From a virus, in the IMG/VR virus record IMGVR_UViG_3300001352_000095, positions 1-22,769 of that record: a stretch of DNA of 22,769 nucleotides. The stretch is one strand, 5' to 3'. The position numbers and the translations under genes are program-made. The notes beneath the pieces are model-generated. The model searched no databases, was not told the origin of the DNA, and was given only the letters and a program-made list of their open reading frames with translations. This document shows, piece after piece, positions 7,650 through 22,769 of this stretch; the stretch's first letter is position 1; each line of letters starts with the position of its first letter.

Positions 7650-9074
7650 TTACAGATTCTCTGCATTCTTAACGGTAAGTTTACCGTAGAATTCAGGACG
7701 AACCATCTTCTTGGCATAACGGGTCATTACACCACGACGTGGAGTAAAGTTGACCGGATCGTATACCAATGGAGTTTGGATTAACGGAATGTACGGAGCA
7801 TAAACTGCACCAGTTTCGAGGAAGTTTGTTCCACGGAATCCGATGAGAATGTCACCACTCGTCATGTATGGATTCTTGTAAACCTGGAAACGATTGTTTA
7901 ACGCACCTACTTTAGTAACACCCATTGCGAACTGAGACTGATTTCCGTCTGTGTCAGCTGCGTATCCTGGGATACTTTCAAGAATTGTAGCAACCGTTGG
8001 AGAACAAACCAAGAAGTTTGCACCACCACGAAGTGTCAATTGATGAATTGTGTTACTCACCTTTTGAATACTTGTGCCGAGTTTCTGGAACAATGTTCCT
8101 TGAGTCTCACCACCCGTAAGAGCAGTAGTCGCATCAAATTCAGTACCTACAGTATGTGCGTTAACGATAAGCATATCGAGAATTTCCAAATCAATTTCCA
8201 TTGAAACGTACTCGGAAAGAAGAGAAGTCAATTCTGCTTCTGCATCAATACTATGATATGCGTTAAGGTCTTGTGCCAACTCGGGTGTCCAAACTGCTTT
8301 CAACTTACGTGTCTTTGCAACGATTGGTTCACTTTTGAGTTCCAAGTTAACTTCGGGGATACCGACATCTTTTTGAATTCCTGTGTCAGCTGCGTCTTCG
8401 GAATTACCAAGATTGTCTTCAAAATCACCACGATTTTCTGCGGTTGTAGCCGCATGGTAATGTAATGTTCCGGCTGCGATTGCTTTGTTTTCACCGTCAA
8501 GTTGAGATTCACTTCCGTCAGCTGCAACAACTTTAAACGCACGAACACCTTCTAAGTCTGCATCAGCTGGGATAGCCGCACCTACCTCGACAGCGATTTG
8601 CTTGTCATTGAGTGAGTAACCGTGACGACCTGCTCCGTAAAGACCACCTGTTGCTTCATCGGTTGAACCGAGTTTTGCGTCTGATGATCCACCGAAAAGA
8701 CTTCCACCACCTTGAAGTGATTGACCTGTTCCATACTTAAAGTCTAAGTAAAAGATCAATCCGGAGGGAAGATTCATTGGTTGAACGGAAACGAATTCCT
8801 TTGATGCGATTTCTGCGAACACACGACGTACTAAAGGAAGTGCTACTCCACTCCACTCTTCGTTGCCTCCACCTGTACCGGTGCGTGATGATTCATCGAT
8901 CAACTGCTTTGCTTGATTTTCTAAAAGAATGGACATACCACTCTTTTCTGTGTCAGTAGAAATTCCTTCGAGAAGTCCTGTCTTTTCCCATTTAGTTACT
9001 AAACCACGGGTTTCGGACATAAGACGTTCTTGAGGATTCTGACTTTCTTTTAATAATTTGCCTATTTCACTCAT
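7650..9074 (-). CDS. 23: Major capsid protein, gp23-like
   Basis: This is the main shell subunit of the head (HK97 fold). Residues 71-108 carry the family hallmark, with LPLVRRVFAEIASKEFVSVQPM followed by NLPSGLIFYLD. The late TPLVYDPVNFTPRRGVMTRYAKKMVRP segment near the C-terminus is also typical. The 474 residues are fewer than the 522 of T4 gp23. The N-terminal 61 residues are a helical propeptide, and I-D-E at 59-61 fits the gp21 rule ([LI]-x-E before the cut). The mature protein would then start at Ser62, close to T4, which loses 65 residues. LLE at 50-52 is an alternative. The ATG at 9074 has AGGAAAA upstream. The gene follows the scaffold by only 33 nt and ends in a strong terminator. 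Confidence 0.95.
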   Translation of the reverse strand: MSEIGKLLKESQNPQERLMSETRGLVTKWEKTGLLEGISTDTEKSGMSILLENQAKQLIDESSRTGTGGGNEEWSGVALPLVRRVFAEIASKEFVSVQPMNLPSGLIFYLDFKYGTGQSLQGGGSLFGGSSDAKLGSTDEATGGLYGAGRHGYSLNDKQIAVEVGAAIPADADLEGVRAFKVVAADGSESQLDGENKAIAAGTLHYHAATTAENRGDFEDNLGNSEDAADTGIQKDVGIPEVNLELKSEPIVAKTRKLKAVWTPELAQDLNAYHSIDAEAELTSLLSEYVSMEIDLEILDMLIVNAHTVGTEFDATTALTGGETQGTLFQKLGTSIQKVSNTIHQLTLRGGANFLVCSPTVATILESIPGYAADTDGNQSQFAMGVTKVGALNNRFQVYKNPYMTSGDILIGFRGTNFLETGAVYAPYIPLIQTPLVYDPVNFTPRRGVMTRYAKKMVRPEFYGKLTVKNAENL

Positions 9075-9107: not shown

Positions 9108-10376
9108 TTATGATTTTATACCTGCAAGTTTCTTGAATCTGTTAGCAAGTTCGTTGCCCTCAGATAAAATCTTCTTGGAAGGTTTTGTTGATTTGATTGC
9201 CTTGGATGCAATTCCTTCAGTCAAAGGGTTTTTCTCAGCCTTTACAGGTTTTGATTTTACCTTTACTTCTGGTGTTTGAGTTCTGAAACTCTCTCCAAGT
9301 GTGGCATATACTAATTTTGCTTCACGAACATTCTTCGTAAGGTCAAAACTTTCTACAACCTTTAGTTTTTGATCTTCATTTAATACGTGTGCCTTAAACA
9401 ACTTATTTGTGTAAAGCAATTTTGCATTAAGAAGATTAACTTCATTTAACTTACCTCGCAAAAATTTGTAAACTTTGCGGTATTCATCATTTTCTTGTTG
9501 AAGTTTAGTATTTGCAGTTTTAAGTTCTGCTAGTTCTTCAGAGGACTCGTCTTCTTCAGATTCCACGTCTGCCGACTCGTCTTCAAGTTCCTTGAGGATT
9601 TCTTCTAAGTTGATTTCTTCATCATCTTCTTCAGATTCATCTTCTTCAGACTCGTCAATTGATTCAACTTCGTCAGAATCTTCGTCAGAATCTTCGTCAG
9701 AATCTTCTTCGGATTCTTCTTCGGATTCTTCTTCGGATTCTTCTACGATTTCAATATCAATATCTTCGTCAATATCAGCAACTTTTTCTTCTTCGCCTTC
9801 AGTTCCTGGATCACCAGCAACAGTTTCAGTTTCAGCAGGAAGTTCTTCATCGTCACTATCAGCAACGTTTACGTGTTCTTCTCCACCTGTGCCTAATTCA
9901 GATGAGTCGGATTGTTCTTCCAACTCTTCTTCATCGTCTTCGACTGCCATTTCATCTTCAAGTTCCTTGATGATGGAATCTAAATCGAACGCATCTTCTT
10001 CAACTGCATCTTCGTCTTCTTCAGAATAGTCACCTTCGACTTCTGGTTCAACGTCAATTTCGTCTTCAGCAGGTGCTTCTTCAGCAGGTGCTTCTTCAGC
10101 AGCCGGTTCTTCAACTGGTGCTTCATCGGCAACTTCTATTTCATCGTCTTCAACTGCGACTTCTTCGTCCTCTTCGGAGTAAGAACCTTCTTCAACTTCA
10201 TCAGAAACTTCAACTTCTGATTCTTCGTCTTCTAATTCTTCTTCCTTGAGTTTTTTTGTAAGCATACTTTGCAAACGTGGTGCGAAAGCTTCTTCGAGGG
10301 CAAGTCTTGCATTTGCAAGAGCTGTTTCACGAACTGCTTTCGCATCTGCAATAGCTTCTTTTAGTAATTTACTCAT
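9108..10376 (-). CDS. 22: Prohead core scaffold, gp22-like, highly acidic
   Basis: This is the likely main scaffolding core protein, removed by proteolysis during head maturation. Residues 1-48 form a basic/helical N-terminus (ALANARLALEEAFAPRLQSM near 19-38). Residues 44-283 are extremely acidic, with Glu/Asp/Ser runs, and 281-365 are helical and probably coiled-coil. The C-terminus is basic (368-422). Possible protease sites include LEE at 27-29, LTE at 385-387 and LSE at 404-406, the last giving a C-terminal peptide starting GNELANRF. KELEDE occurs twice (137-142, 262-267), suggesting internal duplication. It is longer (422) than T4 gp22 (269), and the extra length is the acidic tract. An AAAGGAT Shine-Dalgarno precedes the ATG. 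Position just before gp23 supports the call. Confidence 0.85.
   Translation of the reverse strand: MSKLLKEAIADAKAVRETALANARLALEEAFAPRLQSMLTKKLKEEELEDEESEVEVSDEVEEGSYSEEDEEVAVEDDEIEVADEAPVEEPAAEEAPAEEAPAEDEIDVEPEVEGDYSEEDEDAVEEDAFDLDSIIKELEDEMAVEDDEEELEEQSDSSELGTGGEEHVNVADSDDEELPAETETVAGDPGTEGEEEKVADIDEDIDIEIVEESEEESEEESEEDSDEDSDEDSDEVESIDESEEDESEEDDEEINLEEILKELEDESADVESEEDESSEELAELKTANTKLQQENDEYRKVYKFLRGKLNEVNLLNAKLLYTNKLFKAHVLNEDQKLKVVESFDLTKNVREAKLVYATLGESFRTQTPEVKVKSKPVKAEKNPLTEGIASKAIKSTKPSKKILSEGNELANRFKKLAGIKS
9671..9742 (-). repeat. Tandem 12-bp repeats in the scaffold gene
   Basis: Six consecutive 12-bp units occupy this stretch: three copies of cgtcagaatctt and then three copies of cttcggattctt (plus strand). 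In the scaffold protein they encode the Ser/Glu and Ser/Asp run near residues 212-235. Perfect copies within each set suggest recent expansion by slippage. They are coding and are not a CRISPR or an origin. Confidence 0.9.
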
Positions 10377-10581: not shown

Positions 10582-11304
10582 TTACAAAATTTTGCGATTT
10601 CCGAGTATTCTGTCTAGTTTTTCGGCAAGGGTTATCTTGGTCCAGTTTTCACGAACCTTGTATGTTTTGCCACCAACTTCGAATTCTGCATCTACCGTTT
10701 CTTCGATGTCTTCATCGTCTTCTTCATACGAACAATCAGAGACTTCTTTTATTTTAGACCAGTCTTCACTTACCTTGTAAGTTTTTCCGTCAACTTGAAA
10801 TTCTGTGTCTCCGTCTTCTTTTGCTTTTTTTACAGCTGCACCAAATGCGTTACCTTCTTCTACATCGTCTTCGTCTTCACCTGTAAATTCTTCGGTGTCT
10901 TCTTGTTCGGTAATTTCTTTCTTTTCTTTTAGTTTGTATTTCTTACCCGCAACTTCAAACTCTTTGTCTCCGTTTTCACGAGCAGCTTTTACGGCCGCAC
11001 CGAAAGCATTGCCTTCTTCAATTGACTCTTCTTCCGAATCATCATCCGATTCTTCAGTATTACCTTGCTTTTTAAGAATTGCTTTTTTTAAAGGTTCTGG
11101 TAATTTTTCTTGTGCGGCTGTTAATCCCTCTTCAACATCTTCTGTTTCATCATCAGATGAATCGGAATTACCTTGCTTTTTAAGAATTGCTTTTTTCAAA
11201 GGTTCTGGTAATTTTTCTTGTGCGGCTGTTAAGCCTTCAAATAGTCCAAGTTCTTCTGCGACTTCTTGGATAACTTCTCTTAGTTCTTTTTTTGTAATTT
11301 TCAT
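10582..11304 (-). CDS. Modular repeat polyprotein of the head core (candidate)
   Basis: The 240-residue protein is built of repeated modules. Residues 1-23 form a helical leader. Module A (GLTAAQEKLPEPLKKAILKK...) occurs at 24-46 and 60-82 with near-identical sequence. Module B (GNAFGAAVKxAxExGD, then EFxVxGKxYK) occurs at 98-127 and 151-180, with a shortened third copy at 204-224. Acidic Ser/Asp/Glu linkers join them. Every module is preceded by a site of the form [LIV]-x-E: LFE|G at 23/24, VEE|G at 59/60, IEE|G at 97/98, VEE|G at 150/151 and IEE|T at 202/203. That fits the gp21 head protease rule, so the protein may be cut into small peptides inside the head, like T4 internal proteins. The ATG has AAGGAAA upstream, 12 nt after the preceding gene. 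Function is inferred. Confidence 0.82.
   Translation of the reverse strand: MKITKKELREVIQEVAEELGLFEGLTAAQEKLPEPLKKAILKKQGNSDSSDDETEDVEEGLTAAQEKLPEPLKKAILKKQGNTEESDDDSEEESIEEGNAFGAAVKAARENGDKEFEVAGKKYKLKEKKEITEQEDTEEFTGEDEDDVEEGNAFGAAVKKAKEDGDTEFQVDGKTYKVSEDWSKIKEVSDCSYEEDDEDIEETVDAEFEVGGKTYKVRENWTKITLAEKLDRILGNRKIL
11059..11124 (-). repeat. 66-bp direct repeat, copy 1
   Basis: This 66-bp stretch matches 11167-11232 at 65 of 66 positions by eye, with a 108-bp period (36 codons). It encodes the second module A of the polyprotein. Such near-identity at silent positions points to recent duplication or gene conversion. Confidence 0.9.
11167..11232 (-). repeat. 66-bp direct repeat, copy 2
   Basis: This is the partner of 11059-11124 and encodes the first module A. 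The linker between the two copies is much less conserved, which suggests selection or conversion acting on the module itself. Confidence 0.9.
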
Positions 11305-12045: not shown

Positions 12046-12493
12046 TGGTAGTTTCTCCGTTTATTTCAAAATATCTGTTTAAGATATTACCCATATCTTC
12101 ATACAAACTTTGCATACGCTGTGTGTATACTTGTCTTTCGTTTGCAGTTTTGTGAAATTCTTTAGCAAGAGTTTTGATTTCTTTTAGATTACGTTTTACA
12201 CTCATTGCATCAAACCAATCATCTGTTTCATTGAGAATATACTTAGATGCATTTTCAACGATATTACATATATCTTCTGCTATGTCCGTATCTTTTGCTT
12301 CGTGAGTGATATATGACTGATAATTTCCGAACTTAGAAATTTTCTCAGATGTTAACTTTTTTTGGTCAGCTGACAAACCTTCGTCTTCAAACCTACCTGT
12401 TTTTGGATTAAATTCATTGATTTGTTTAGTTCGTTCTTCTTTGAGAACTTCTAAAATCGTAGACTTGATTAATTTAGAGATTTCTTTATTCAT
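12032..12493 (-). CDS. Unknown helical protein with putative capsid-targeting N-terminus
   Basis: The 153-residue product is mostly helical and unrecognised. It starts MNKEISKLIKSTILEVLKEE, matching the N-terminal pattern shared by other genes of this region. INE at 25-27 is a possible cut site. A short linker (NPKTGRFEDEGLSA, 29-42) precedes a helical body. The start codon shares one base with the protease stop (TAATG at 12491-12496) and has GGAGAAATG upstream, so translation is probably coupled to the protease. Coupling to gp21 and position before the scaffold suggest a head-core role, but none is proven. Confidence 0.7.
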   Translation of the reverse strand: MNKEISKLIKSTILEVLKEERTKQINEFNPKTGRFEDEGLSADQKKLTSEKISKFGNYQSYITHEAKDTDIAEDICNIVENASKYILNETDDWFDAMSVKRNLKEIKTLAKEFHKTANERQVYTQRMQSLYEDMGNILNRYFEINGETTNEQT

Positions 12494-13122
12494 TACATTT
12501 CTCCAATCTCTCCGAGTATTTCATGTACGATTCCCTCAAGTTTACAATATTTGGTACACACTCGGTCTTCGGTTATGACTTTAAGTTCAGGTGAAACTGA
12601 TTCGTTTAAATTCACAGGTTCTAAAAAAGCACCTCTGGTTGATGGATTGCTAACAAAATCAAATGCCACCAATTCAAAATCATCATTGACCATAGTTTTT
12701 CCTTCACTTTCACGAGTAGTTCCCATTCCCCTTGAACTTATACCAAGTGTGATACCAGCCTTAAACAATTCTTTTAAAATATTACCAGACGGAGTTCCTA
12801 AAACTTCAACGTCACCAAGAAGACTATCACCTTCCCACCACATCTTTTTAACATTGTGACTTACATTCTGTAAATTAACTACACTGCTTTCTGGATGATC
12901 AAGTTCTCCCAGTGCACGTCTATCATTTATCAGTTCGTTATATTTGCCCGCCTCTCGTTCCAACAGTGACCGTGTATAAACACGACCATTTTGATTTTGT
13001 TCAGTTGCTTTTTGTAGAATTCCCCTTACAAGAAGTTTACCCGAGTTTTTTTCAATACTTTCACTTATTTGCTCAGGACTGAATTCAAAGGGCATGGTGG
13101 ATACTAATAATTTTTTTGCCAT
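12493..13122 (-). CDS. 21: Prohead core protease, gp21-like
   Basis: This is the serine protease that matures the prohead by cutting scaffold, core and capsid proteins after [LI]-x-E. At 209 residues it is close to T4 gp21 (212). Candidate catalytic residues are His76 in GELDHPESS, Ser129 or Ser130 in GITLGISSRGMG, and Asp155 in LVAFDFVSNPS; the SSRG motif is a family hallmark. NQNGRVYTRSLLERE near 43-57 is also typical. The C-terminus ends EILGEIGEM, and LGE could be a self-cleavage site. The ATG at 13122 lacks a Shine-Dalgarno and has an ATTTAT-type element 4 nt upstream. It heads the operon protease, two unknown genes and the modular polyprotein. Confidence 0.92.
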   Translation of the reverse strand: MAKKLLVSTMPFEFSPEQISESIEKNSGKLLVRGILQKATEQNQNGRVYTRSLLEREAGKYNELINDRRALGELDHPESSVVNLQNVSHNVKKMWWEGDSLLGDVEVLGTPSGNILKELFKAGITLGISSRGMGTTRESEGKTMVNDDFELVAFDFVSNPSTRGAFLEPVNLNESVSPELKVITEDRVCTKYCKLEGIVHEILGEIGEM

Positions 13123-14405: not shown

Positions 14406-14882
14406 CTATTTCATTTCTTTTATTTTATAAGAAATGCGTTTAATCTTTTCGTCTATTTTTAATAAAAATCTATTTGTCGTTTTCCACATTTTACTATTGT
14501 TCACGTTTGCCTCTGCTTTATACCGTGTAGAAACTTTTAACAATTTTTCAACTTCAGTCATAAGTTTATTTATTTCTCGTACCGCGACTCCCACTTTTTG
14601 CTCAGGTGTATAATCAGGATGATCTCTGAACAAGTGAAACAAACTTCTGCCCTCGTTTAGTTTTATAGTGTTTGCTTTTTTATTTTCTGTGGACTTGTAA
14701 TCAAACACCTCTGCGTTAGACTTTATGTCTTCTGCGTGTTCATCTTCATCCTTGCCACTAAATGCATGAGGAGTTTCGTATCCATCTACATTTGATGTGG
14801 TATTAACTTCGGACAATTTAGATTCTTCTTCAAGTTCTTGAAGAATTGTTCTTATGATGTCTTTAAGATTACTTTTTTTCAT
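14406..14882 (-). CDS. Unknown helical protein with putative capsid-targeting N-terminus
   Basis: The 158-residue product starts MKKSNLKDIIRTILQELEEE, the pattern shared with the products starting at 12493, 12045 and 11304; LSE at 23-25 is a possible cut site. Residues 27-70 look disordered and acidic. Residues 73-158 (LNEGRSLFHLFRDHP near 75-89, then QKVGVAVREINKLMTEVEKL) are helical and, from memory, resemble a hypothetical family of marine T4-like phages. The ATG overlaps the preceding gene by 14 nt; the Shine-Dalgarno is weak (GAAG or a distant GGAG). A prohead core role is a guess from context. Confidence 0.7.
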   Translation of the reverse strand: MKKSNLKDIIRTILQELEEESKLSEVNTTSNVDGYETPHAFSGKDEDEHAEDIKSNAEVFDYKSTENKKANTIKLNEGRSLFHLFRDHPDYTPEQKVGVAVREINKLMTEVEKLLKVSTRYKAEANVNNSKMWKTTNRFLLKIDEKIKRISYKIKEMK

Positions 14883-17715: not shown

Positions 17716-18324
17716 TTACTGAAACTCACTTGCAGCTCCAATAATATCACCACCATCAAATCCTTGGAAAGGACCAAGTGGGTTTTTCTCTTTTTCTAAA
17801 CGATCAATGTTCTTTTCACCTGAGTACAAAACATATTCAACCGTATCATCTACGATAAGAATCAGTACACTGATTTTCCATCCAGTCGTGTGAACTATTT
17901 TTCTGAAATTGAGCATATCTAAAAGTACACTTCCTTCTCGTTTGTTTTTAAGTCTTTCCAAATTTATTTCATATGCTAGTCCGTTTTCACGTGATGCAAG
18001 CATTTTTAATACACCCGCAGGTAGTTCTATTTTATTAAACAAAGTAAATCTAGATGGACTATCCAATTTAAACTTACTCATAACATCAAGATATGTTAAA
18101 CGTTTTACATTTGGTATATTTTCTAAATCAAGTCCCATCTTAACAAGATCGGAGTATGATGTCTTACCCACTACAATCTCATTAACAACAACCTCCACTT
18201 CGTTATATGTATCATACAAAGACTCCGTGTACACTCCCCTAGTAGGTAGCAACGATTGTGTTGCACAACCTCCTGTTAGTAATAATAGACCCGTGAGGGT
18301 GAGTATAATCGGCGTTTTCTTCAT
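17716..18324 (-). CDS. Phage-encoded lipoprotein, unknown function
   Basis: The 202-residue protein begins with a clear lipoprotein signal: MKK, a hydrophobic core (IILTLTGLLLL), then TGGC with Cys20 as the lipidation site. Ala at +2 would direct it to the outer membrane of a Gram-negative cell. The mature part has a segment near 52-90 (EIVVGKTSYSDLVKMGLD) reminiscent of BamE/SmpA-type small lipoproteins, but this is weak. The ATG at 18324 has AGGATACC upstream and lies 26 nt after the gp17 stop, so it is probably co-transcribed with gp17. It is not a head protein by appearance. Some phage lipoproteins block superinfection (for example Llp of T5), which is one possible role here. Confidence 0.85.
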   Translation of the reverse strand: MKKTPIILTLTGLLLLTGGCATQSLLPTRGVYTESLYDTYNEVEVVVNEIVVGKTSYSDLVKMGLDLENIPNVKRLTYLDVMSKFKLDSPSRFTLFNKIELPAGVLKMLASRENGLAYEINLERLKNKREGSVLLDMLNFRKIVHTTGWKISVLILIVDDTVEYVLYSGEKNIDRLEKEKNPLGPFQGFDGGDIIGAASEFQ

Positions 18325-22163: not shown

Positions 22164-22769
22164 CTAAAACCTCATTATTCCCATAATTTGATTTATAGGA
22201 GCAAATGTTCCGGTGAGTTTATATGTACCACCTTTATATTGAAATACAACTCCTTCACTTGGTGCGATTACTTTCGTTCCACCAATTGCAGTAAGACGAT
22301 CAAGATTTTTGTGTAGTTTGGCCATATCTTTTTTGAACTTATCAGGTGATTCCACCGAATTAATTTTTTTGTTTTCTAATGTTTTGGTATGTGCATCGAG
22401 TGCTTTTGCTATGTCATCACTTCCACCAGCTGCCACAAATCCTTTTACATTTTGAAGAACTTCTGCTCCTAGTTTCAAAAATATAAATTGGAAAGGCCAC
22501 ATATTTGCTTCAAATTGTTTTACGATATCTTCTTTTTCAAATTTGTTTACCCAATCTTTCAACTTGGGTTGTTCAGATAAGTCCATTCGTATCGTTGTAA
22601 TTTTATTTGATTTATCATTGTATGCCCAACGACCTATAAGTGCTTCATATACTTTTGCAGGAAATATTTCTTTTAATTTGCTTTGTTGTTTATTCAAAAG
22701 ATTTCTCCACCAAGAATCGTGATACTTCATTACTTTATCGTTGTCTTTTAATTTAAATTCTTTTTTGAG
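22164..22769 (-). CDS. C-terminal part of a larger unknown gene (cut by window edge)
   Basis: An internal ATG at 22730 would give 188 residues, but it has no good Shine-Dalgarno and the frame stays open for 13 more codons to the window end (LKKEFKLKDNDKV), with coding-like residues. The gene therefore probably starts outside the window, and this is its last 201 residues. It contains a KVMKYHDSWWRNLLNKQQ helix and a long helical middle. Near the end is APSEGVVFQYKGGTYKLTG, then FAPINQIMG. EGVV followed by a Tyr-Lys-Gly strand is reminiscent of motif IV of nucleotidyltransferases (ligase-like), and similar tails occur, from memory, in uncharacterised marine phage proteins. No KxDG motif is in view, so an enzymatic role cannot be tested here. 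Confidence 0.7.
   Translation of the reverse strand, partial: LKKEFKLKDNDKVMKYHDSWWRNLLNKQQSKLKEIFPAKVYEALIGRWAYNDKSNKITTIRMDLSEQPKLKDWVNKFEKEDIVKQFEANMWPFQFIFLKLGAEVLQNVKGFVAAGGSDDIAKALDAHTKTLENKKINSVESPDKFKKDMAKLHKNLDRLTAIGGTKVIAPSEGVVFQYKGGTYKLTGTFAPINQIMGIMRF

Follow-up and report, generated by a model that had tools for sequence, protein, structure and literature searches.

Organization of the head gene cluster and of the 240-aa protein

The window, by which we mean the whole stretch of 22,769 nucleotides analysed here, contains a cluster of late head and tail genes from a T4-like phage, with genes for terminase, portal, protease, scaffold, capsid, sheath and tube (sheath, tube, portal and terminase were assigned by sequence and position). 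An open reading frame of 240 aa (P0001), whose product is referred to here as the modular protein, sits between the protease and scaffold genes. The protease gene lies three genes upstream of it, with two small genes intervening.

10582..11304, minus strand: gene of the modular protein, a putative head-core protein of 240 aa; ATG start at 11304, 29 homologues in IMG/VR, conserved synteny
12493..13122, minus strand: gp21-type prohead protease (PF03420, E 6e-27; phrog_207, E 5e-52), the candidate enzyme
9108..10376, minus strand: acidic scaffold protein in the gp22 position, assigned by position and conservation
7650..9074, minus strand: major capsid protein gp23 (PF07068, E 1e-82)

The gene order portal or p289, protease, p153b, p242, modular protein, scaffold and capsid is kept in those homologous loci that are long enough. 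The first-pass annotation had described the product as a self-partitioning head polyprotein. Its placement in the head region is borne out by the gp21-type protease gene and by a site of the same type in the capsid protein. The term self-partitioning is misleading, since no peptidase domain was found in the modular protein by Pfam and PHROGs searches and the protease is encoded by a separate gene. The same profile searches gave no family match above noise and detected no homology to T4 gp67, gp68 or the T4 internal proteins.

The lineage with the modular protein, a group of uncultured marine phages, consists of metagenome-derived sequences only, and no relatives of the protein were found in cultured phages. 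The closest cultured relatives of the capsid protein and the protease of the window belong to Flavobacterium phage immuto (52 and 48% identity, respectively) and Microcystis phage Mel-JY01, and a Bacteroidota host is therefore plausible for this phage. A literature search for the name immuto found no paper, and a paper on Baltic Flavobacterium phages does not mention it. Elsewhere in the window, the protein encoded at 17716–18324, between the portal and terminase genes, has an N-terminus resembling a lipoprotein signal (MKKTPIILTLTGLLLLTGGCATQ), and an open reading frame at 22164–22730 has homologues near genes for polyproteins of other phages that contain module B (see below).

The modular protein consists of a leader, two A modules, two B modules, a half B module and a C-terminal segment, with acidic linkers joining the parts. 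The residue positions proposed earlier for the two A and two and a half B modules and for the acidic linkers were verified, as was the presence of [LIV]-x-E followed by Gly or Thr before every module (LFE/G, VEE/G, IEE/G, VEE/G and IEE/T; the slash marks the predicted cut).

11236..11304, minus strand: N-terminal leader, residues 1–23 (MKITKKELREVIQEVAEELGLFE), predicted helix at 5–18; candidate capsid-targeting leader
11233..11244, minus strand: predicted cut site LFE/G, residues 21–24; L-[FL]-E-G precedes every covered first A module
11167..11235, minus strand: module A1, residues 24–46; basic peptide, helix-turn-helix-like
11125..11136, minus strand: predicted cut site VEE/G, residues 57–60; border conserved in homologues
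11059..11127, minus strand: module A2, residues 60–82; identical to A1 in protein, with 0 differences (2 of 69 bases differ)
11011..11022, minus strand: predicted cut site IEE/G, residues 95–98; ISE, ITE, LNE, IRE or IDE in homologues
10924..11013, minus strand: module B1, residues 98–127; predicted helix and β-hairpin, pLDDT 88
10852..10863, minus strand: predicted cut site VEE/G, residues 148–151; border conserved in homologues
10765..10854, minus strand: module B2, residues 151–180; 70% identity to B1
10696..10707, minus strand: predicted cut site IEE/T, residues 200–203; VDE/S, VEE/S or VKE/S in homologues
10645..10698, minus strand: half module B3, residues ~203–220, hairpin part only, from model and sequence
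10585..10644, minus strand: conserved C-terminal segment, residues 221–240, net charge +3, from sequence

The leader sequence occurs once in the 151.8 kb record. The predicted cuts fall after E23, E59, E97, E150 and E202 and would release the 23-aa leader followed by peptides of 36, 38, 53, 52 and 38 aa. The modular protein has a net charge of −31, and four of the five predicted module peptides keep an acidic linker (pI 4.2–4.4); the last one has a pI of 9.3. The AlphaFold model of the full-length protein (pLDDT 58) contains the leader and A helices, the B fold and low-confidence linkers. Modelled alone, module B forms a helix (3–14) and a β-hairpin at the pLDDT given above. Together with the presence of B in many unrelated proteins, this supports the proposal that it is a stand-alone small fold. 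A Foldseek search of module B against the PDB gave nothing significant (best E 2.1).

The motif [LIV]xEG occurs four times in the modular protein against 0.55 expected from shuffles (p ~0.002), and all four copies lie exactly at module starts. The count of the bare motif [LIV]xE (16 observed, 7.8 expected) proves little, because as many as 16 occur and the motif is common in acidic proteins. Two of the off-border copies are LPE-P within the A modules, with Pro at P1', and three others (LKE, VSE and VRE) each sit at the C-terminus of a B unit or close to it. Glu-rich linkers inflate the motif count, as would be expected if the pattern had arisen by chance or from the low complexity of an acidic and repetitive open reading frame. 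We regard such an artefact as hardly conceivable in view of the shuffles, and it is already refuted by conservation, both of the modules and gene order in the homologues and of the borders, as described next.

Conservation of module borders and of similar sites in other head proteins

IMG/VR contains 29 clear homologues (L001–L029), which are mostly close to full length. A further ten loci there have weaker or partial matches, mostly to module B only. The homologues have one to three copies of A and two to three of B (halves not counted), and the modules are much better conserved than the linkers, which vary in both length and sequence. A further module, C (QSxSS[ED][IL]G...HV[ND]VAD), is inserted in some homologues.

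The first-pass annotation had named homologues without border sites as one observation that would speak against it, and this check came out in its favour. All 111 scored borders (53 A and 58 B, from 26 distinct homologues) fit [VIL]-x-E/G, with one A border having lost P3 and P2 to a contig end and with many homologues so closely related that the counts are non-independent events. P3, P1 and P1' are constant at these borders, while P2 (E, F, D, S, T, L, N or R) and P4 vary. A variable P2 combined with a constant P3 and P1 matches the expectation for a protease motif. For V at P3 the counts are 27 of 53 A borders and 32 of 58 B borders, whereas the T4 motif is described as L/I-x-E. In those homologues that carry a half B, it is preceded by [IV]xE/[TS].

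Other head proteins of the window provide yardsticks for the specificity of the protease.

8964..8975, minus strand: LLE/G site in the capsid protein, residues 34–37, invariant in 22 of 22
9111..9224, minus strand: C-terminal peptides of the scaffold bounded by LTE/G and LSE/G; [LI]xE kept at both places in relatives
14808..14882, minus strand: leader of a neighbouring core protein, ending KLSE/VNTT; [LIV]xE kept and middle residue variable in homologues
12413..12493, minus strand: leader of a neighbouring core protein, ending QINE/F; QINE, QLNE, LLNE, LLKE or LLAE in most homologues

The capsid LLE/G is also present in immuto, in Mel-JY01 and in a sister lineage (L111/L121). At the scaffold-tail sites immuto has IKE/H and ISE/V and Mel-JY01 has LKE/S and LNE/S, meaning that P1' changes and [LI]xE persists. 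Both neighbouring-gene leaders look helical and end in [LIV]xE with a variable P2; a few members of a divergent group (L011/L013/L026) deviate at these sites.

Across 372 ORF clusters from all retrieved loci, [LIV]xE[GS] is enriched 3.95-fold in B-containing proteins, a value that is partly built in because these were found via module B, and capsid (3.2-fold) and scaffold (2.8-fold) are the fairer comparison. Enrichment was also seen for the protease proteins (3.5-fold) and p242 (3.4-fold), and not for portal (0.8-fold), terminase (0.47-fold) or gp13/14 (0.47-fold).

These sites bear on the idea that the protein is a structural repeat which stays uncut, as a flexible spacer or scaffold companion in which [LIV]xEG merely caps the first helix of each module. 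The modular protein is indeed Glu-rich, and the E-G before NAFG forms part of the B consensus also where P3 is not hydrophobic, as in a sister lineage with KKNEG or AKHEG ahead of the first B. We nevertheless find an uncut repeat very unlikely, since the same site type recurs in the capsid protein, the scaffold tail and unrelated leaders. Moreover, module A also occurs inside other phage proteins outside the modular-protein family, often without a preceding [LIV]xE (GGLTAAQ, KKGLTAAQ), which speaks against the motif being simply part of A. Relatives can also keep the site with another residue at P1' (VSE/LTDAQ in L111 and LDE/LTKAQ in L173).

Modules A, B and C in other phage proteins

Module B alone gave at least 255 candidate viral stretches, and no B relative was confirmed in a search of genome_contigs. 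B is found in C-terminal extensions of prohead proteases, which are apparent protease-scaffold fusions (L051, L090, L100 and L102), in proteins starting with MKKFEEFIGE/G, which we take to resemble the capsid-targeting leader of T4 IPIII, and in large proteins with a KISSFKSF-like leader.

Proteins with the KISSFKSF-like leader (L063:3533–6580, and also L109, L115 and L120) are 579–1016 aa long, polyprotein-like and divided by [LIV]xE motifs. On a reading of motif positions, the 1016-residue protein of L063 splits at [LIVM]xE[GSAN] into segments mostly of ~55–85 residues, and the spacers between segments in these giant polyproteins are 4–5 residues long (SLNE, SVVNE, SVVTE and SFINE). The phage of L063 encodes a protease of the Peptidase S77 type as well as a Gp23 capsid protein. 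Of eight B-polyprotein records, one matched PF03420 and PF07068, several of the others being short fragments and one a 161-kb record without a match; the protease linkage of this group therefore comes mainly from G004, in whose capsid protein a cut site could not be assigned.

In L053, L104 and L108 the last B stands at the C-terminus and ends in TLKD (VTLKD in L053), and relatives that continue further read TLKE. Glu may have changed to Asp in a terminal B where a cut would be needless, although the cases are few and related. The sister lineage (L108, L111 and L113) also has repeated ESVNE-type motifs in several head-region proteins, including a DUF3008-type protein.

The loci L161, L164–L166, L168, L169 and L172 encode module A as a basic protein of its own, 33 or 53 aa long; terminase or portal-like open reading frames lie nearby in some of them. 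The 53-aa protein contains an RGRP stretch resembling an AT-hook. A role of A as a DNA-condensing peptide was considered and is countered here by the acidic tail that A would keep after the predicted cutting.

Module C links the modular protein to the adjacent scaffold gene.

9834..9914, minus strand: scaffold copy of module C (LEE/QSDSSELGTGGEEHVNVAD...), a module exchanged with modular-protein homologues

C has two subtypes, DSDDE and DCKDC, and in L014 and L025 these have changed places between the scaffold and modular-protein genes. The scaffold of immuto, KNV73_gp067 (L174:9644–10015), has a tandem repeat of its own (186 bases, 94% identical, 62 aa), the copies of which are preceded by VNE/G and LEE/G.

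Searches of cultured phages with module A, one marine B consensus and the large polyproteins found no relatives, and a single-B query gave three matches with an E of 7. Two loci were inspected: the Vibrio one encodes a DUF7446 protein and is not a relative, and the protein of Rhizobium phage RHEph01, which is similar by eye only, was likewise rejected.

Proposed role in the prohead core and comparison with known systems

In T4, cleavage by gp21 takes place after L/I-x-E. The core proteins gp22, gp67 and gp68 end up as multiple fragments (PMC9026906), most of which exit the head (PMC9026906, PMC9958956). The T4 internal proteins shed a capsid-targeting leader of 10–19 residues (PMC9026906, PMC9958956, PMC5694885). 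Like gp22, gp67 and gp68, the modular protein has several predicted gp21-type [LI]xE sites and is encoded in a head cluster with gp21, gp22 and gp23, and it is acidic as gp22 is. It differs from them in that its sites are placed exactly at the borders of repeated modules, the number of which varies between phages. With IPI, IPII, IPIII and Alt it shares a short leader ending in a gp21-type LFE/G, but the T4 internal proteins are basic and are cut once, after their 10–19 aa leader, whereas the modular protein is acidic and has a 23-aa leader and several sites. Judged from its sequence, it appears to combine a leader of the internal-protein kind with a multi-cut acidic core chain. The earlier contrast between a string of repeated peptides and the single-domain internal proteins of T4 is correct, although multi-site cutting was already known for the T4 core proteins.

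Repeated cutting of one substrate by a single prohead protease, as predicted here, is also known for the propeptides of phiKZ and SPN3US (PMC5694885, PMC10052503), the SPN3US protease having the motif A-x-E (PMC10052503). In these phages the cuts destroy a propeptide ahead of a mature domain, whereas in the modular protein they would separate modules, and there is no large mature domain. Polyvalent proteins, multi-domain phage proteins of which some are processed and packaged in heads, have several domains per chain as well and were compared with polyproteins by their authors (PMC5512222); these often have a peptidase of their own and large enzyme domains, unlike the modular protein with its separate protease and modules of 23–30 aa. 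The immuto scaffold is similar in being a head-core protein with a tandem repeat and a site before each copy, but its module is of another type and the repeats lie within the scaffold itself. Our literature search, which covered few subscription journals, found no description of module repeats in which each border carries a protease site, nor of modules exchanged between a scaffold and a neighbouring core protein.

We consider it likely that the modular protein belongs to the prohead core of a T4-like phage, is cut by the gp21-type protease into module peptides and then loses its grip. The observed basis is the gene position, the protease gene, the capsid site, the conservation of the sites and the reuse of the modules in head-core proteins. 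The leader would probably bring the protein into the core in the manner of a T4 capsid-targeting sequence, and the repeated modules may provide several weak contacts of the intact chain with the core or shell. Upon closure of the prohead, the protease would cut after [LIV]-x-E at each module start, and the multivalent grip would be lost. Most of the pieces would then leave, or remain as free internal peptides, during DNA entry. As far as its sequence tells, the chain accordingly has a layout that probably serves its breakdown into small peptides at head maturation. Against this we count the commonness of the bare motif, the E-G of the B consensus, the B modules of a sister lineage that have no hydrophobic P3, the V at P3 and the failure of the profile searches to detect homology to T4 gp67, gp68 or the internal proteins.

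The same cuts could also serve a packaged peptide precursor, in which the module peptides are the product, are retained and injected, and act on DNA or the host. T4 IPI and Alt are the parallels for injected proteins, and the precursor would hold several peptides per chain. The far better conservation of the modules than of the linkers would fit such a precursor, as would the separate small A proteins of other phages, the B relatives in many-domain polyproteins with intervening cut sites and the B relative that begins with a leader like those for T4 capsid targeting. We hold a packaged precursor to be rather unlikely, since four of the five module peptides are acidic, in contrast to the basic T4 internal proteins, and since T4 core fragments mostly exit the head (PMC9026906, PMC9958956). 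The exchange of module C with the scaffold and the occurrence of B in protease-scaffold fusions likewise point to a core role. A role in the core is favoured because most module peptides would stay acidic with their linker, because C is exchanged with the adjacent scaffold gene and because the immuto scaffold itself holds a tandem repeat with [LIV]xE/G before each copy.

It is possible, and we suggest it with some reserve, that uncultured T4-like phages follow a general polyprotein strategy, in which interchangeable mini-modules and small domains with prohead-protease sites between them, in giant cases up to 1016 aa in total, are taken in as one chain and released in the capsid as retained or injected peptides. 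If the proposed cutting of the modular protein is true, the picture of T4 head maturation would be extended, as the protease would not just clear a scaffold but also split a chain of modules at borders that are conserved. This suggests a general route by which many small proteins might be loaded into a phage head via one leader. The signature of modules separated by [LIV]xE may also be used to find head-core proteins, possibly injected ones, among unannotated phage genes.
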